Both the position numbers and the translations under genes were made by a program. From Acidobacteriota bacterium (lineage in GTDB: Bacteria > Acidobacteriota > Vicinamibacteria > Vicinamibacterales > UBA2999), in assembly GCA_030697165.1 (NCBI GenBank), contig JAUYQQ010000004.1, positions 62,001-126,000 of the forward strand: a stretch of 64,000 bases of DNA. Direction: 5' to 3'. Within the stretch, counting starts at the first letter, position 1; each line of letters starts with the position of its first letter. The notes under the pieces are model-generated. The model had not been told where the DNA came from. It saw nothing but the letters and a program-made list of their open reading frames with translations, and did no database searches. Positions 10,715 to 62,557 of this stretch are shown here, piece after piece.

Positions 10715-11353
10715 ATGTTTCCATCATCGCTGCCGATCTTTCCGTTGCCGACGGTCGTTCTGTTCCCGAACGTCTTTCTGCCCCTGCACATCTTCGAGCC
10801 GCGTTACCGCCAGATGACCGCCGACGCGCTGGCCGGCGATCGGCTGATCGGCATGGTGTTGCTACGTCCGGGCAACGACGCCGACTACGAGGGCCGGCCA
10901 CCGGTCTACGGCACTGGCTGCACCGGGCTGATCACGCACGCCGAGAAGCTGGACGATGGCCGGTTCAACCTGGTGCTGCGTGGGCTGGAGAAGTTCACGA
11001 TCCTGGGTGAGGAAGACCCGGCAGTAGGCCGGCTGTACCGCAGCGCCTTCATCACCCCGATCGACGAGACCGTCCCCAAGGCCGACCGCGACCCCCTGCG
11101 CGAGGCCCGCCGCAAGCTCGAAGGGCTGCTGGAGCCGCTGTTCGAGGGGACCATGGAGAGTCGCCTGCCGCAGAACATGCCAGACGATGACCTGATTAAC
11201 GCGCTGGCGCAGTACCTGGATTTCGATCCGATGGAGAAGCAGGCACTCCTTGAGCGCCTGGGCCCGCTCGCCCGCTGCCGGTCGATGATCGAGTTGCTGG
11301 AGATGAAGGCGCTGCTGAAGAACTCCGCCGGCGACGCCGGCTTAGTTCACTGA
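10715..11353 (+). CDS. Stand-alone LON substrate-binding-domain protein
   Basis: 212 aa. The N-terminal half matches the LON (Lon N-terminal) domain: LPIFPLPTVVLFPNVFLPLH, HIFEPRYRQM and the GTGCTGLI turn, followed by a helical bundle. It lacks the AAA+ and protease parts of Lon. Single-domain LON proteins of about 200 aa are common in bacteria; their role, perhaps as substrate adaptors, is not settled. ATG at 10715 is the first start after the G-rich tandem array and no good Shine-Dalgarno is present. It is the last ordinary gene before the cassette array. Confidence 0.85.
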   Translation: MFPSSLPIFPLPTVVLFPNVFLPLHIFEPRYRQMTADALAGDRLIGMVLLRPGNDADYEGRPPVYGTGCTGLITHAEKLDDGRFNLVLRGLEKFTILGEEDPAVGRLYRSAFITPIDETVPKADRDPLREARRKLEGLLEPLFEGTMESRLPQNMPDDDLINALAQYLDFDPMEKQALLERLGPLARCRSMIELLEMKALLKNSAGDAGLVH

Positions 11354-11402
11354 GGTGGAGGCGACCCCTTCTTGGGGTTGCCTGGGCAGCTTCACGCTCC
11401 AC

Positions 11403-11485
11403 AGCGAGTTGTCTGTAACTAACCTGCCCGTCGGGGCGCTGTTGATTCCCTCTGTCCAAACAGAAATCGGTCGCCCCGACTCCCG
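11403..11485. repeat. Left copy of 83-bp inverted repeat bracketing the cassette array
   Basis: This segment matches the reverse complement of 16020-16102 at 81 of 83 positions. It starts AGCGAGTTGTCTGTAA and ends CGCCCCGACTCCCG. Inside it GTCGGGGCG (11430-11438) pairs with CGCCCCGAC (11472-11480), so each copy can also fold on itself. The pair encloses the five cassettes and all five attC-like sites. The surrounding 11354-11581 stretch holds no credible gene. Confidence 0.95.
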
Positions 11486-11486
11486 A

Positions 11487-11525
11487 CCTTCGACATGCTC
11501 AGGTCGCCCCGAGCGGAGTCGAGGG
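11487..11525. repeat. Imperfect palindrome of the CCTTCGAC...GTCGAGG type
   Basis: CCTTCGACATGCTCAGG (11487-11503) can pair imperfectly with the following CCCCGAGCGGAGTCGAGGG. It lies directly next to the left 83-bp repeat, outside the cassettes. Similar-looking palindromes are dispersed in many bacterial genomes; whether this one is repeated elsewhere in this genome is unknown. Confidence 0.6.
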
Positions 11526-11581
11526 GCGCCGACTTGCGTTCGGGCTCCACCTGATGGCGGACGGCCTGTGCCTGTCGGGCT

Positions 11582-11651
11582 GGCTAACGCTGCCGCCTCA
11601 ACACCGGCGCGCGCCGGGATGTTCCCTCGTCGGCTGCAGCAGCTGTTAGGT
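11582..11651 (-). other. attC-like recombination site A (70 bp)
   Basis: Read on the minus strand it runs from ACCTAAC (R'' box) through GCTGCTGCAGCCGACG to GTTAGCC (R' box). The R'' box contains the TAA stop codon of the PIN-domain cassette, a common overlap in gene cassettes. The R' box departs from GTTRRRY at one position, so this end may be slightly degraded. It is the site furthest from the presumed start of the array. Confidence 0.75.
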
Positions 11652-12179
11652 TGCAGCCCCGCATCGCGCCCACAGCTCGCCCACCGAAACGCACTGTCCG
11701 CCATACTCCTTCGCGACCACAGTGAGGTGCGTGTCGTCCGTCACGAGGACGTGCCCGGCTTTTATTGACGTTTCGCCGATCAGGGCGTCTTGTACGTTAT
11801 TTGGCTTAGCCCCGTTTAGGAAATCAAGGCGTGTCTTGAGGGCGGCGTACAGGTTGTCGTTCGACGAATAGCTCGCTTGACCAAAGTTCGAGATCCCAAA
11901 CACAGCTGAAGCCGTTGGGACGAAACGCTCGCCGCCGAGCCGAGCATGGCCAAGACGAGATACGTCAAGAACAAAGGAACCGGTTGGCACTGCCTCCGTG
12001 ATCACAGCCGCGAAGATTGCGCTAAGAGCGGCGCGCCGCTCTTGATCCTTGGTTCGTTGGGGTTCGTCGAGTTGAATGTGGGTTGCGAAGACCTCAACAT
12101 GCCCAGCCAACGCCTGAACCGGCACGATGCCATCGAGAATGCGATTGAACACGTTCGTATCGAACATGACCTTGAGCAT
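11646..12179 (-). CDS. Cassette gene 1: PIN-domain protein
   Basis: 177 aa from ATG 12179 (MLKVMFDTNVFNRILDG). The PIN fold is indicated by the first acidic residue in FDTNVF, a glutamate-containing second helix (HIQLDEPQR) and the acidic pair near the C-terminus, QDALIG...LVTDD, the layout of Mg-dependent PIN ribonucleases. The frame is open to 12227, but that part lies inside attC site B, so 12179 is the likely start with a leader of about 15 nt. The TAA stop lies within the R'' box of site A. No antitoxin gene accompanies it, which is unusual for a VapC-type toxin; it may be a solitary nuclease. Confidence 0.72.
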   Translation of the reverse strand: MLKVMFDTNVFNRILDGIVPVQALAGHVEVFATHIQLDEPQRTKDQERRAALSAIFAAVITEAVPTGSFVLDVSRLGHARLGGERFVPTASAVFGISNFGQASYSSNDNLYAALKTRLDFLNGAKPNNVQDALIGETSIKAGHVLVTDDTHLTVVAKEYGGQCVSVGELWARCGAAT

Positions 12180-12194
12180 CAAGGGCGTTCTGCA

Positions 12195-12290
12195 ACTTAA
12201 CGCCTGCCGCTCAGCCGCGAGCGGCATGGCGCGGTCATGCGAAGGACTCTAAACCATCCGCCGCTCGTCGGCTGCAGCGGTTGGTTAGGC
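12195..12290 (-). other. attC-like recombination site B (96 bp)
   Basis: On the minus strand: R'' GCCTAAC, L'' region CCGCTGCAGCCGACGAGCGGC, a variable loop, the complementary CCGCTCGCGGCTGAGCGG and R' GTTAAGT. The two arms form a long imperfect palindrome. It is nearly the same sequence as site E, including the loop segment GGATGGTTTAGA. It lies just downstream of cassette gene 2. Confidence 0.88.
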
Positions 12291-12325
12291 CGTTCGTTGC
12301 GAACAGAACTGATCGCGTGAAACCG

Positions 12326-13066
12326 CTAGTCCCGAGACACGTGATGCAACACGAAATCAGTCTGATTGTCGGTGAATTCGACTCGAAACACCTCTCTCAT
12401 CTGCGTGAGACGGCCGTTTACCCAATCAACTGGAGGCATGAGGACTCCAGGCATTGGGACCATCTGGCTCTTGGGGTACTTTGAGGTGTAATCGGCGCTT
12501 AGGAGGCTCAGGACTCTGAGCCTTCGATCGTACTCAGGCGAGTTTGCGCCGCGTCCGCCCTGACCGTACCCTTCTTTGCCCGTTAGGCCCCACGATTTCA
12601 GTGCTTCGGGGGATAGCTTCTTAAGGGGACTCTCGGCGCCAGCCCCTCCGCGACCATCGGAACGGCCGCCGCCCCCGCCGTCCCCACCAATGACCATTGC
12701 ACCCTCTCCGACAGCGTCCCCTCCGCCTCCATCTCCGCCGCGCCCTCCGCCTGGGCTGCCACCCTTTCCGCCGGTGCCTCCGAGAACGATACTGTCCTTG
12801 CCCACTGCGTTTCCGCCACCGCCGAGACCGCCCCGCCCATCCGGCGGTGTCGAGTCAGAACTGGCGATCGGTAAACCATGACTGGCGTCCGACGCGGCCG
12901 CTCTTGACCTCTCGATTGTTCGGGCAGCAAACACAGACAAGCCGACAATCGCAACAACGAGCGCGGCTCGTTGAACTCGGTCGAGCTGCCAGGGATTCGT
13001 CAGCACCGCAGCTCCGAAAATTGTCGCTAGGACTGCAAGGGCGAAACGCTCAAGCCAAATACTCAT
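12326..13066 (-). CDS. Cassette gene 2: two-helix membrane protein with Gly-rich central region
   Basis: 246 aa. Two hydrophobic helices (about residues 8-24 and 33-50) are followed by a Gly-rich stretch of about 70 residues (about 76-146; for example GGTGGKGGSPGGGRGGDGGG) and a C-terminal domain with VPMPGVLMPPVDWVNGRL and FRVEFTDNQTDFV. I do not recognise the family. The start ATG at 13066 lies 26 nt after the R' box of site C and the stop is 36 nt before site B, so it occupies one complete cassette. The Gly-rich segment may form a flexible tether between membrane and C-terminal domain. Confidence 0.62.
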   Translation of the reverse strand: MSIWLERFALAVLATIFGAAVLTNPWQLDRVQRAALVVAIVGLSVFAARTIERSRAAASDASHGLPIASSDSTPPDGRGGLGGGGNAVGKDSIVLGGTGGKGGSPGGGRGGDGGGGDAVGEGAMVIGGDGGGGGRSDGRGGAGAESPLKKLSPEALKSWGLTGKEGYGQGGRGANSPEYDRRLRVLSLLSADYTSKYPKSQMVPMPGVLMPPVDWVNGRLTQMREVFRVEFTDNQTDFVLHHVSRD

Positions 13067-13091
13067 TGAACCTGATCCACTGTAGTTAAGG

Positions 13092-13178
13092 GCCTAACGA
13101 TCGCGGTTCAGCCGCGGCGGCTCACCTCGCACTGTCAGGTGGATACACGCCGCCTTCGGCTGCAACCGCTGGTTAGGC
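13092..13178 (-). other. attC-like recombination site C (87 bp)
   Basis: On the minus strand: R'' GCCTAAC, then AGCGGTTGCAGCCGAAGGCGG, a loop, and GCCGCGGCTGAACCGCG leading to R' GTTAGGC. The pattern of L'' (TTGCAGCCGA) and L' (CGGCTGAACC) closely follows classical attC sites, which fixes the orientation as gene-then-attC on the minus strand. It directly follows cassette gene 3. Confidence 0.9.
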
Positions 13179-13183
13179 CGCGC

Positions 13184-14161
13184 TTACCGCGTTGTGACCT
13201 CGAACGTGATATTCCCTCTGAAGTTGGCTTCCGCGAACTCAGGTGGAATCAGAGTTGGTGCCCCAAGCCCGCCCGCGGTATCTGCGAAGTACATGACCTT
13301 TGGCCGAACCGTGAACTCGGCTCGCTGCTCAGCAGCTCCGATCCTATAGCGGACGCTCGCCTGCACATCAGGACCGGAGAGGAAGAACTGCCAGGTTCTC
13401 GGGCGCGGCATCTCACACAGGAGCCTGAGCACGATGTTGTTCAGGATCTCACCAGGCAAGGGGAACGTCGTCGCATCATCTGAGGTTGGCGTTGCCGGCG
13501 CGAACGGCACAAGGCTGATGGCCTCATCAGACACCGGTATGCCGATCTCGCGAGGTGCATCCGGATCGGTGAGGAAATAGAGGTACTCGTCCACAACGCG
13601 TGGCCTGTATGGACGCAGTACATCGGAGTGCAGAAATACCTCGCTTATTGGGGCGCCTGGCACCAGCCAGGAGATCTCGATGTCAGTAACCGGCAACGGT
13701 CCGATGTTTTTCAACCGCATTAGAGGTCTACTATCCTCCAAGACCGCTCCGGTCGTGTCCATGGCCTTCACCTGAACCGCATAGCTGCGCTTGGGGACCC
13801 ACTCGACTCCCACGATGGTGTTCGCGGCGGGCAGAAGCAACACTTGGGTGCCCGCTGATGGCGACAACGGAACCGACTGGGCGTCGCCGCGGACTACCAG
13901 CAGCCAGACACCGACCGCCAGGAGTCCTCCCAAGACGAAGATGAATGCTAGGCTCATCGGATGACTGGCCCTTCGGTGGCGCGCGAACGGGGTGAGTCCA
14001 GGTGCGTGGGCGAACAGCCAGCCTGAGCACGCAAGCAGGAAGACGACGAGCGCCACCGCCCACACCGGGCGCCGCCACGACCCCAGCCAGTCGGGTGGAG
14101 TCAGCCACGTGGCGACAGCAAATGTCGCAGACACGAGTACTCCCCAGCTCGATCTCAACAC
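13184..14161 (-). CDS. Cassette gene 3: membrane-anchored protein of unknown function
   Basis: 325 aa. There are three hydrophobic helices in the first 90 residues (about 8-22, 32-50 and 70-90), then a long extracytoplasmic-looking, beta-rich domain (SPSAGTQVLLLPAANTIVG onward) without a recognisable motif. It starts with GTG at 14161 and its stop at 13184 is 5 nt from the R'' box of site C. Base composition is visibly lower in GC than the flanking genes. No related sequence is recognised; it could be a surface or envelope protein. Confidence 0.6.
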   Translation of the reverse strand: MLRSSWGVLVSATFAVATWLTPPDWLGSWRRPVWAVALVVFLLACSGWLFAHAPGLTPFARHRRASHPMSLAFIFVLGGLLAVGVWLLVVRGDAQSVPLSPSAGTQVLLLPAANTIVGVEWVPKRSYAVQVKAMDTTGAVLEDSRPLMRLKNIGPLPVTDIEISWLVPGAPISEVFLHSDVLRPYRPRVVDEYLYFLTDPDAPREIGIPVSDEAISLVPFAPATPTSDDATTFPLPGEILNNIVLRLLCEMPRPRTWQFFLSGPDVQASVRYRIGAAEQRAEFTVRPKVMYFADTAGGLGAPTLIPPEFAEANFRGNITFEVTTR

Positions 14162-14239
14162 AGCCGGTTCAGCTTACATGGCTTCGCGCTGTTGTGGCAG
14201 CGCCCGTTCTGCGTCGACGAGCGCACCCGGCCCAAGTCG

Positions 14240-14316
14240 GCCTGACGCCAGGCTTCAGCCGCCGCGCGCGGCCAAGTATCCCCCTGTGCGCCGTCGGCTG
14301 CAAGCCGTGGTTAGGC
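14240..14316 (-). other. attC-like recombination site D (77 bp)
   Basis: On the minus strand: R'' GCCTAAC, L'' region GGCTTGCAGCCGACGGCGC, loop, then GCGCGGCGGCTGAAGCC and R' GTCAGGC, one base off GTTRRRY. The TAA stop of cassette gene 4 lies inside the R'' box (GCC TAA C). Confidence 0.82.
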
Positions 14317-15042
14317 CGTTGCAGGAGCCGCGGAATTGGAGCGAGCGTCAACAATTCTCATCAGGAGGCTCGCCAGGGCAACCATCTCCGCCGCCTCGCT
14401 CCCGTTGGTGAGCCCGATGTGCCGGTGACTGGTCGGATTCTTGAACAGGCCCATAGCCCCGGAGAACAGGCTCAACATCGCGAGTTGTTCGGCTTCCGGC
14501 AGGGACTTGTCCGTGAGTGGTCCGACGTTCGCCTTAAACGCTTCGCCCATGAGCGCCACGCCTACCTTCACAGCGGGGAAACCGCCCGCCGCTCTTACGG
14601 CGATCTCGACTTCCTTGAACGCTTGCAAAACAGCGATGTCATACTCGCCCCGAACGAAGCTTGACCATACGCGCTCAGCAACCACAGGGTGTAACGACGC
14701 CTTGGGCAAAACATTTGAGCGCCTGAACGCTTCGAAGTCCTGTCGGCCTCTAACCCGCAGTCCTCGCCGCGAGATGAAGTAACGGTGTGACTTGGCCACT
14801 AGAAGCCCTTCGCGTTCAAGCCACGACCACGCTTCTCGAAAGGCTTCGTCAACTCGGACGTCTTTTCCGTAGTGGGCCATGACTGTGTCGCCCACGCTAG
14901 ATTCAAGAAAGTTGGTCAGATTCAGGTGGCTAGGATTGCCTGCAAGGTGTTCAAGCAGATAAGGGGCAAGTTCCTCTGCTTCAAGCTGAAGAACTGATTC
15001 AACGGTGGGAAGAGCTTTCGTAATCTGCAAGATTGTCCTCAC
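14311..15042 (-). CDS. Cassette gene 4: TIGR02391/Hypoth_Ymh family protein
   Basis: About 243 aa. The C-terminal half (about residues 110-240) has the features of the TIGR02391 (Ymh) family: a helical pair AFKEVEIAVRAAGG, then SGAMGLFKNPTSHRHIG, where the FxNPxxHR segment is diagnostic. The N-terminal half has a winged-helix feel (WSWLEREGLLV). Members are uncharacterised and often sit on mobile or defence-rich DNA. The start is uncertain: GTG at 15042 is used, while TTG at 15060 lies inside the R' box of site E. The stop overlaps the R'' box of site D. Confidence 0.7.
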   Translation of the reverse strand: MRTILQITKALPTVESVLQLEAEELAPYLLEHLAGNPSHLNLTNFLESSVGDTVMAHYGKDVRVDEAFREAWSWLEREGLLVAKSHRYFISRRGLRVRGRQDFEAFRRSNVLPKASLHPVVAERVWSSFVRGEYDIAVLQAFKEVEIAVRAAGGFPAVKVGVALMGEAFKANVGPLTDKSLPEAEQLAMLSLFSGAMGLFKNPTSHRHIGLTNGSEAAEMVALASLLMRIVDARSNSAAPATA

Positions 15043-15054
15043 TCGAGGAGATCG

Positions 15055-15150
15055 GCCCAACGCATTGCCGCTCAGACGCGAGCGGCGGGCACGGTCACGC
15101 GAAGGAGTCTAAACCATCCGCCGCTCGTCGGTTGCAGCGGCTGGTTAGGC
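15055..15150 (-). other. attC-like recombination site E (96 bp)
   Basis: On the minus strand: R'' GCCTAAC, L'' CCGCTGCAACCGACGAGCGGC, a loop with GGATGGTTTAGACTCC, CCGCTCGCGTCTGAGCGG and R' GTTGGGC. It is nearly identical to site B over most of its length. It follows cassette gene 5 by 7 nt. Confidence 0.88.
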
Positions 15151-15157
15151 ATCCCTT

Positions 15158-15760
15158 CTAGTATTGATGGTACCAAGCCAACGTTGGCTCTTGCGGGGGG
15201 AGCAGCTCGCACCGAATGTGAAGGCGGTTTTGGCCACAGTCAACGAATCGCTCCGCGACCGCCTCGGCGGCTCCGGCGGCACCGGGTAGCACAAAATCAA
15301 TGGCAACTCCGATGGACACATCGCTCGACTCGACCGGCACCTTGACCGATTCAGTACGGTTCGAGTGTCGGGGATTACCCGAGCGTGAGATCTGGCTGAC
15401 CGGCTTCGACACGAACCGAATCCAAGGCACGTGCCCCTCTTGCGCAAGCATGATCTCAACCTCGGCGATCCCGGCAAACAACTCTGAATCACCATTCGCG
15501 CGCAGGTGGAAGTAGACCGGCGGGTGAAATGTGAGATGGGGATTCGTCACGGCCTGGAGCTCGTGCGGGCTGTGCGGGACTAGGTATTCCAGGGTGACGC
15601 GGTTATACGCGTTCCAAACGAATTGACGCGCGTGAAATCGCGGCGACACGAAGGCGCGATCGGTCAAGCCGACTGAGATAGCACCATCTGGCTGCAGGCT
15701 GATCCACGCGATCGAGCGCTCCACTGATTGGCGATCCACGGCGTGCACTGTGAGTAACAT
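15158..15760 (-). CDS. Cassette gene 5: protein of unknown function
   Basis: 200 aa, soluble, no signal peptide or membrane helix. It is rich in beta-type segments (MLLTVHAVDRQ, SVGLTDRAFVS, VYFHLRANGDSELF) and ends LLPPQEPTLAWYHQY. I do not recognise it. It starts with ATG at 15760 and is the cassette nearest the presumed insertion point, because all cassettes read right to left. The region to its right carries no integrase gene. Confidence 0.55.
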   Translation of the reverse strand: MLLTVHAVDRQSVERSIAWISLQPDGAISVGLTDRAFVSPRFHARQFVWNAYNRVTLEYLVPHSPHELQAVTNPHLTFHPPVYFHLRANGDSELFAGIAEVEIMLAQEGHVPWIRFVSKPVSQISRSGNPRHSNRTESVKVPVESSDVSIGVAIDFVLPGAAGAAEAVAERFVDCGQNRLHIRCELLPPQEPTLAWYHQY

Positions 15761-16221
15761 CGGAGCTCTCGAAAATGCCCAATTAGTTACTGAGCTGCGT
15801 GAATCCTAACCTGACCCCGGCTTAGGCTGACGCTGTTTCGCAAGTTCGCTGCGGGTCGCCTCTTTCTGCCGTGTTAACTCTGTCTTGATAACACGACGGC
15901 ACACTTGCTTGATAACGCATCAACGAGGCGACGCGGAGGCCCGCTGAGCAGCCCCACACTGGCACCTCCTGGCAGACACCGAGGCATCTCGCCGTCGGGT
16001 GGAGCGCGAGCGCAGCCGGCGGGAGTCGGGGCGACCGATTACTGTTTGGACAGAGGGAATCAACAGCGCCCCGACGGGCAGGTTACTTACAGACAACTCG
16101 CTGCGAAGGCAGGGCGACAGTTGGGCCTGAGCTGCGAGTTGAAAGCCGTCGCGAAGCGAGCGCGGAGGCCGATGGCGAGATGCCTCGGCCATCGGCGTCG
16201 GACGCACCTAAAGGTGCGGCC
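15761..16221. other. 461-bp gene-free flank of the cassette array
   Basis: This stretch lies where an attI site and integrase would be expected, but no integrase reading frame is present. It holds TCCTAAC...CTTAGG (15804-15826), a possible worn recombination-site remnant, the right 83-bp repeat (16020-16102), an enclosing 15-bp perfect inverted repeat (CCGAGGCATCTCGCC at 15979-15993 with its complement at 16174-16188), and a REP-like hairpin near 16203. Small open frames here overlap the repeats and are not credible genes. Confidence 0.7.
16020..16102. repeat. Right copy of 83-bp inverted repeat bracketing the cassette array
   Basis: Reverse complement of 11403-11485 with two mismatches. The distance between the inner ends of the two copies is about 4.5 kb and contains only the cassette array and its attC-like sites. 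This copy is itself nested in a 15-bp perfect inverted repeat (15979-15993 and 16174-16188). Confidence 0.95.
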
Positions 16222-16225
16222 CTAC
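16203..16225 (-). repeat. REP-like hairpin with GTAG foot; supplies the stop of the S1 gene
   Basis: CGCACCTAAAGGTGCG (16203-16218) is a perfect palindrome. On the minus strand GTAG (16225-16222) precedes it by 3 nt. The TAG of this GTAG is the stop codon of the S1-domain gene. Confidence 0.8.
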
Positions 16226-17400
16226 TTTTTGAGGGCGCCGCGGAGTTGGTCGGCGAGCGAGCCGATGCCACCTGATGGAGCGGGGACTTGGCGATCGCGG
16301 TACTCCTTCACTTCGTCGACCTTCTTGCCATCGCGAATCTCCGCGCCGTCCTGCACCATCGCCACGCCGATGCGCTTCTTGTCGACATCGATCGCGACGA
16401 TCTCGAACGGCGCCGTCACGCCGACGGTGACCGCGCGCTTCCAGTCTTCCTGCCGGCCCGTCGGCGCGAAGGTCGAGAAGTGCGCCAACGCTTCGACGCC
16501 AGGCTCCAGCTCCACGAACGCGCCGAAGTCGGCGATGCGGGTGATGCGGCCGGTCCTGACCTGCCCCACTTCGTAGCTCGATGCGGCGGCGACCCACGGA
16601 TCGGCCAGCAGCTGCTTCAAGCCCAACGCGATGCGCTCGCCGTCGTTGTCCACTCGCAAGACGCGGACCGTGATCTCTTCACCGACCTTGACCACTGAAC
16701 CAGGATCGGTCACACGCGACCAGCCCATCTCGGATACGTGCAGCAATCCCTGGACGCCGGCGCCGAGGTCAACGAACGCGCCGAACTCGCGCACCGAGGC
16801 CACGCGGCCGGTGACAGTATCGCCAACCGCCAGCGACTGGCGCAGGACGGCGGCGCCGGCCTTCTGTTCGTCTTCGAGCAGCGCACGGCGAGAGACGACC
16901 AGGTTCTTGCCGCCTTCCTTGAACTCAATGATGCGGAAGGCGTAGGTCTGGCCAATGTGCTGGGCCGGATCGGTGGCGCGGACCGTGTCGATCTGCGAGA
17001 ACGGGCAGAACCCGCGCTGGCCGGCGACGCGAACTTCGTAGCCGCCCTTCACCTCGCGCTCGATCTTGCCTTCAACCGACAGTCCAGCCTGGTAGGCGTT
17101 CTCGAGCTGCCGCAGCGAGGCCGCGCCCCGAATGCCCTTGCGCGACAGGGTGATGCCGCCGGTGGTGCCGATCACGATCGCCTGAATACGATCGCCCACG
17201 GCGAACTCGAGGTCGTTCTCGTGATCCTTCAGGTCGGCGGTCTCGATCACCGCCTCGCCCTTGCCGCCGACGTTGACGAGCGACGTATCGGGCCCAATCG
17301 CCACGATCGTGCCCTCGATCGACTGTCCCCTGGCAAAGCGCCTGGTCTTGACCGACGCCTCGAACATCGCGGCGAAATCTTCTACTTCCGGCTCACTCAC
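16222..17400 (-). CDS. Protein with four S1 RNA-binding domains (ribosomal protein S1-like)
   Basis: 392 aa. Four consecutive S1 repeats can be seen, starting near residues 22, 105, 195 and 280; the third, TGRVASVREFGAFVDLGAGVQ..HVSEMGW, and fourth, TGRITRIADFGAFVELEPG, are the most canonical. It is shorter than six-repeat RpsA and probably binds mRNA or modulates translation. Start is GTG at 17400 with AGGAG 6 nt upstream; the open frame further upstream to 17739 lacks homology to S1. The C-terminus ends GALKK and the TAG stop belongs to the REP-like element at 16203. It may be an extra S1 paralogue rather than the main RpsA. Confidence 0.83.
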   Translation of the reverse strand: MSEPEVEDFAAMFEASVKTRRFARGQSIEGTIVAIGPDTSLVNVGGKGEAVIETADLKDHENDLEFAVGDRIQAIVIGTTGGITLSRKGIRGAASLRQLENAYQAGLSVEGKIEREVKGGYEVRVAGQRGFCPFSQIDTVRATDPAQHIGQTYAFRIIEFKEGGKNLVVSRRALLEDEQKAGAAVLRQSLAVGDTVTGRVASVREFGAFVDLGAGVQGLLHVSEMGWSRVTDPGSVVKVGEEITVRVLRVDNDGERIALGLKQLLADPWVAAASSYEVGQVRTGRITRIADFGAFVELEPGVEALAHFSTFAPTGRQEDWKRAVTVGVTAPFEIVAIDVDKKRIGVAMVQDGAEIRDGKKVDEVKEYRDRQVPAPSGGIGSLADQLRGALKK

Positions 17401-17480
17401 GGCGTACTCCTCAAAACATTGCCCGAAGGCCAACAGGCAATGGTACCGCGGCCGGGCCAATGGCGACACCGGAATCTGTG

Positions 17481-60478: not shown

Positions 60479-62557
<2,079 letters not shown>

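Follow-up and report, generated by a model that had tools for sequence, protein, structure and literature searches.

How do two sites of one gene array come to share nearly the same 96 bp when the genes in front of them are unrelated? The question is raised by an array on the minus strand of a 64,000-nt stretch of DNA (the window; positions 62,001 to 126,000 of contig JAUYQQ010000004.1, here C4) from the Acidobacteriota assembly GCA_030697165.1 (here G000). In integrons, the integrase inserts and excises cassettes through the folded bottom strand of attC sites, with the attC of every cassette placed at the 3' end of the cassette's gene. The reading to which we give a probability of about 0.93 is that the array is a cluster of attC sites lacking an integron integrase (CALIN), and that the two sites, B and E, belong to a family of attC sites, termed type 1, spread on unrelated cassettes in one genus and its neighbour. 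The type-1 sites would have spread through the genus on many unrelated cassettes, and we infer capture of the cassettes by an integrase and exchange between species. The two sites are:

12195 to 12290, minus strand: attC site B, 96 bp, with the type-1 loop GATGGTTTAGAGTCCTTCGC; 86.8 bits with the covariance model
15055 to 15150, minus strand: attC site E, 96 bp, with the type-1 loop GATGGTTTAGACTCCTTCGC; 87.8 bits with the covariance model

A first-pass annotation, made from the letters of the window alone, had described B and E as almost the same sequence, loop included. This was borne out and the positions were exact: 84 of the 97 alignment columns were identical, with 11 mismatches and 2 gaps, and blastn gave 91% identity over 86 nt. 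When a pattern of the arms and loop of B and E (31 positions, two of them free, with up to three mismatches) was run against the window, two matches were found, exactly B and E, and none of 100 dinucleotide shuffles of the window contained a match. The other sites and the genes of the array are:

11582 to 11651, minus strand: attC site A, 70 bp, the last of the array and the lowest-scoring of the five sites
11646 to 12182, minus strand: cassette gene 1, read from a start internal to a longer open reading frame (ORF; 11646 to 12227), which gives about 178 aa; PIN-like by eye, no PADLOC match
12326 to 13066, minus strand: cassette gene 2, 246 aa, with a Gly-rich middle; its cassette bears site B
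13092 to 13178, minus strand: attC site C, with a different loop
13184 to 14161, minus strand: cassette gene 3, 325 aa
14240 to 14316, minus strand: attC site D, with a different loop
14311 to 15060, minus strand: cassette gene 4, at most 249 aa; Hypoth_Ymh (PF09509, 80.9 bits) and a weak PD-Lambda-3_B match (15.7 bits)
15158 to 15760, minus strand: cassette gene 5, 200 aa; its cassette bears site E

The minus-strand order is gene 5, E, gene 4, D, gene 3, C, gene 2, B, gene 1, A. Each of the five genes ends just ahead of an attC-like site or overlaps it, a single orientation is kept throughout, and the five sites lie within 3.6 kb. A CALIN is recognised by two or more attC sites a few kb from each other, one gene orientation and no nearby intI. 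The array is a CALIN of five cassettes on what is, judged from its relatives, an acidobacterial chromosome, since its attC sites are clustered, its genes run in one direction and its contig holds no integrase match. No Pfam match was found at E 0.01 for genes 1, 2, 3 and 5, and a search of the 42 other genomes covered in the family gave no match to gene 5 at E 1e-5.

The sites were scored with a covariance model, R1, built from 14 sites of G000, A to E themselves included; it was used instead of an initial regular-expression scan, in which R' was too strict and which missed A, D and many sites of the relatives. With the model, E and B ranked first in the window, followed by C, D and A (65.6, 62.9 and 41.7 bits), and the following match scored 16.3 bits. 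As first described, A, C and D differ in the loop and share the core: the identity of their inner part to the B and E loops was 0.19-0.50, and the stem motif around CAGCCGACG/CGCGGCTGA is mostly common to the five sites. Both the R'' (RYYYAAC) and the R' (GTTRRRY) boxes fit in B, C and E. The consensus fold of the 14 sites is one hairpin of 15 pairs, 11 of which have changed on both sides in at least one site. Columns 18 and 25 of this consensus, both on one arm, are unpaired, which would be the pattern expected of the extrahelical bases of attC. Judged by boxes and fold, B and E are attC-type sites and putative substrates of an integron integrase.

The likeness of B and E, real as it is, is not merely that of a pair, as had been described, since a family of 15 sites was found. 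When the loops of 76 collected sites were compared (72 rows, minus one opposite-strand echo at L178 12899-12999, plus the five sites of the window), 15 sites from seven genomes formed the type-1 cluster; the loci had been gathered largely by similarity to E, and 15 is not a frequency. The further loop copies were found on contigs C9 and C22 of the source genome and in six relatives: four sites each in G000 (B, E, one on C9 and one on C22) and G006, three in G007, and one each in G001, G003, G004 and G031. The other loop clusters held 3, 3, 3, 2, 2 and 2 sites, and 46 sites were singletons. Above the threshold, 115 loop pairs were observed against a mean of 0.25 (maximum 1) in 20 shuffles, which preserve single-base content only.

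The family is bounded in its distribution within the class, as the earlier reading of a lineage-specific attC family had it. A strict 36-base type-1 pattern (up to three mismatches) was found at 13 places in six of the 193 genomes of the class, namely five of the nine genomes of the genus and G031, from another genus of the same family; this pattern misses the C22 and G003 members. The reversed pattern, used as a control, matched in none of the 193 genomes, and no exact match of the type-1 pattern was found in viral contigs. Elsewhere in the family, other genera have the hairpin arms as well, joined to different loops. From these comparisons, the arm sequence appears to be broadly shared and the loop to be the lineage-specific part. 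Type 1 is thus a lineage-specific attC family, a kind of thing already known and best known in Vibrio.

Whether such sites come from a pool or from local copying can be judged by the genes and by the nearest relatives of each site. The ORFs upstream of the 15 type-1 sites were mutually unrelated (blastp, E 1e-3) except for one toxin-antitoxin cassette, with a RelE-like and a helix-turn-helix (HTH) gene, which carries a type-1 site and is common to G000, G004 and G006; one further match was between two ORFs of one locus (L177). Some of these ORFs were taken without a known preceding attC, and a few are therefore not cassette genes. The nearest site to E is in G031, in another genus (0.87), and the nearest to B are E and a G006 site, tied (0.84). 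In the three genomes with several copies, identity was 0.815 within genomes and 0.809 between them (permutation p = 0.24). The unrelated upstream genes, together with nearest sites in other genomes, support a shared pool of cassettes, and the clustering within genomes is weak, in line with the earlier proposal that cassettes with a common site type were drawn from a pool.

A local origin, in which one cassette was duplicated and one of the two genes was later replaced or decayed, would suit two sites that are 2.9 kb apart in one array and 88-91% identical. When B and E, each with 600 bp on either side, were compared by blastn (E <= 0.001), only 26 nt of A against E were found besides the site pair itself (next E = 0.059), and genes 2 and 5 gave no blastp match at E 1e-3; the genes flanking B and E are unrelated, as had been claimed, and no trace was seen of the duplicated segment that the first-pass annotation had named as the finding that would contradict it. 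Moreover, E is nearer to the site from the other genus than to B, B is as near to a G006 site as to E, and by eye the loop of E is closer to that of a G006 site, whose gene is unrelated, than to the loop of B. We regard local duplication as very improbable. That the shared sequence is a dispersed repeat lying between genes, and no attC at all, is almost certainly wrong: palindromic repeats are indeed dispersed in the genome, and one copy lies at each end of this array, but these have another sequence, whereas R boxes are present in B and E, both sites keep a constant orientation to their genes, their attC fold leaves bases unpaired on one arm, and a type-1 site adjoins intI on C9.

Gene conversion or homologous exchange among attC sites, independent of the genes, might also keep the type-1 sites alike, and it is compatible with spread on unrelated cassettes. 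The toxin-antitoxin cassette carries three loop subtypes, one each in G000, G004 and G006, and the loop of E is identical, letter for letter from GATGG through GTGCCCG, to that of the G006 toxin-antitoxin site, on unrelated genes. Exchange of sites is hinted at because E and G006 share this loop while the cassette has other subtypes in G000 and G004. Of 43 genomes searched in the family, 12 have the HTH gene of the cassette. Among its nine more diverged copies, those of at least G011, G018, G031 and G037 lead at the same point into a hairpin whose arms differ (by eye), which shows that sites do change under a persisting gene; no hairpin was seen by eye at that point after the copies of G005 and G040. 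Conversion between similar sites has been proposed in Vibrio (PMC1382264). On the other side, the sites do not cluster clearly by genome, and in a recombination test of the pairwise homoplasy index type the loop alone was not significant (p = 0.75-0.81), while the signal of the whole site (p = 0.001-0.0045) is possibly due to misalignment at the 5' end. Conversion as what keeps the sites alike is a possible but rather unlikely explanation.

The same toxin-antitoxin cassette allowed drift to be gauged, with values given in the order G000-G004, G000-G006 and G004-G006. At the four-fold sites of both genes, 40/120, 38/121 and 44/122 positions differed, against 0, 1 and 1 of 43 positions in the hairpin arms. 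Bases 1-20 of the loop showed 3, 0 and 3 differences, and the following 12 bases 8, 6 and 4. Relative to the four-fold rate, the arms were clearly conserved (p = 6e-7, 2e-5 and 2e-6), conservation of the first loop part was less sure (p = 0.08, 0.001 and 0.05), and the 12 bases of the second part showed none beyond that rate; the three species pairs are mutually dependent. This is a weak sign that part of the type-1 loop is conserved by its letters, and the conservation of arms and loop could reflect selection on the letters or exchange of sites between cassettes. Under selection, the integrase or a host factor would bind the loop element once the bottom strand folds. That the type-1 letters are selected beyond the fold, with the first 20 loop bases (GATGGTTTAGACTCCTTCGC) recognised as a single strand, or with loops actively exchanged, seems to us distinctly doubtful. 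According to PMC2727003, replacement of the loop made little difference to a Vibrio site in vivo, and a loop change in another attC, cited there, reduced integrase binding in vitro.

Several observations weigh against the reading of type-1 attC sites spread on cassettes. None of the seven TIGR02249 matches of the genome lies on C4. The R' box departs from GTTRRRY in A (GTTAGCC) and in D (GTCAGGC), where only R'' fits, and in B complementarity between the R boxes holds at just 5 of 7 positions. Over all 15 type-1 sites, there is a slight excess of identity within genomes (0.815 against 0.790 between them, p = 0.04), which leaves room for some local spread or conversion. Present activity is brought into question by the integrase gene on C9 (L018 16410-17360), the sole match of G000 above the TIGR02249 cut-off of 265 (401.5 bits): its match begins at model position 24, the first 23 positions being absent. 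It also lacks the N-terminal motif LLDQVR..RHYS.RTE, which is present in nine compared integrases, while five matches beginning at model position 1 were found in four relatives (G001, G002, G004 and G006, the last with two copies). Contig C2 holds only a fragment of intI. The C9 integrase thus looks truncated and its present activity doubtful, and the array may now be immobile, since this sole above-cut-off integrase gene of the assembly lacks the first 23 model positions.

Further arrays of the genome and genus were located with the covariance model. At least 15 attC sites were found in G000, of which five are those described here, three each are on C9, C22 and C2 and one is on C23, and the genus holds at least 134 attC-like sites in eight of its nine genomes. 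The whole-genome searches scored 150 candidates per genome, and at least one site found in another search, that on G003 C26, is absent from the genus-wide list; these counts are lower bounds. On C9, three attC sites adjoin intI, which is on the strand of the cassettes and points toward them. The same arrangement was found at G006 C13, G006 C15 and G002 C45, and at G004 C8 the nearest attC is on the strand opposite to intI.

The type-1 family resembles the Vibrio cholerae repeat (VCR) family yet is not homogeneous. As in Vibrio, described in PMC1382264, similar sites stand on many genes; there, the VCR sites (59-base elements) of the superintegrons form clades of mixed species, none being species-specific between close relatives, and interspecies transfer and gene conversion were proposed. 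A VCR-like family would make up nearly all sites of a genome; type 1 is a minority (4 of the 15 sites listed in G000), and the G000 arrays are short, with one to five sites. The taxonomic signal in attC was captured by covariance models for 11 taxa, Acidobacteria included, in PMC8352920; that signal is at the level of the phylum, whereas the present loop family is limited to one genus and one neighbour. The intI arrangement at C9, G006 and G002 is like that of the chromosomal integrons of Treponema, as given in PMC3607928, which differ in belonging to another phylum, and the opposite strands at G004 C8 depart from it.

To the pair first described, the present analysis adds a boundary within the class, presence on three contigs of the genome, a truncated integrase, the history of the junction and a weak sign of conservation of loop letters. 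A clean attC family bounded by one genus and its neighbour, with one linked cassette in three species by which drift can be gauged, makes it testable why attC sites within a lineage stay alike, whether by common descent, by selection on the letters or by exchange.

The surroundings of the array bear on its history. The features at the junction are:

10715 to 11353, plus strand: left neighbour gene, labelled LON
11402 to 11485, minus strand: core of the left dispersed repeat, an element about 200 bp long that stands in inverse orientation to its right-hand counterpart; outer limits 11350-11560 by eye
15797 to 15850, plus strand: edge segment GCGTGAATCC...GTTTCGC, bordering the array at its upstream end; the segment recurs at this gene junction in G006 and, more diverged, in G008
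15979 to 16188, plus strand: right copy of the dispersed repeat, with terminal inverted repeats of 20 nt
16222 to 17403, minus strand: right neighbour gene, labelled S1

The labels LON and S1 are presumed identities. The array lies between these two convergent genes. In G002 the corresponding genes are about 40 bp apart. The gap of 640 bp in G006 contains a weak attC-like match (28 bits), the edge segment and one dispersed repeat; that in G008, of 870 bp, contains the edge segment too, together with what remains of the repeat and, by eye, an ORF. After the left gene, G003 has an attC (42 bits) and a dispersed repeat; a reading frame that looks transposase-like by eye comes next, before the contig ends, and in G001 the right neighbour is 170 bp off, but on the strand of the left gene. 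The right neighbour was not found in the searched DNA of G003, G004, G005 and G007. Because the same junction is nearly empty in G002 and variously filled in G006, G008 and G003, it would seem to be an old place of integration, which different species have filled and emptied.

The left and right repeats are 97.6% identical over 84 nt, against 93.9% and 91.7% to the junction copies of G006 and G003. That the flanking cores are more alike than either is to these copies suggests conversion or inversion between the two flanking repeats. The repeat was found at 17 places in five of the nine genomes of the genus. Of these places, five have an attC-like match within 5 kb (the two here, G003 C26, G003 C140 and, beside a weak match, G006 C19), and the other 12 have no attC-like match within 10 kb among the matches listed; the repeats are not regarded as part of the integron. 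Some class 1 integrons of Acinetobacter are flanked by miniature inverted-repeat transposable elements, and short inverted-repeat elements on both sides of the array are likewise found here. Unlike in Acinetobacter, there is no sign that the repeats move the array, and the same junction has single copies in the relatives. Another inverted pair of the repeat lies on C8, 7 kb apart (L026 9115-9307 and 16136-16302). It was considered as a second flanked array and rejected: no attC was found between its copies by the strict scan or the covariance model, and the ORFs are ordinary by eye.

For a class 1 attC site, an extrahelical C and A are expected. That these bases are instead G and A, read on the coding strand, was considered as a peculiarity of these sites and dropped, as 9 of 16 sites scored in loci from other phyla gave GA and 5 of 16 CA; the count took in sites whose 5' arm has two single bulges spaced 6-9 nt from each other, by which many sites were omitted. 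Among the 76 collected sites, GA was found in 45 and no such bulge pair in 18.

Some other arrays have features of their own. The C9 cassettes (L018 14226-15981) are toxin-antitoxin-like, with PemK/MazF, ParE and RelE with an HTH partner. The arrays of C22 (L020 9252-9362) and C9 (L018 16228-16340) start with a similar stretch ending in GATACAGTTAGCC (likeness by eye), a possible attI; no strong intI match was found on C22, despite this candidate. By far the highest number of attC-like sites in the genus among the matches listed, at least 51, was found in G007, where none of nine intI matches reaches the family cut-off. Finally, the metagenome-assembled genome Acidobacterium sp. Baikal-G1 (L030) has an integrase of 82% identity, and two of its attC scores equal those of G002; from these equal scores, it is probably G002 or its twin.

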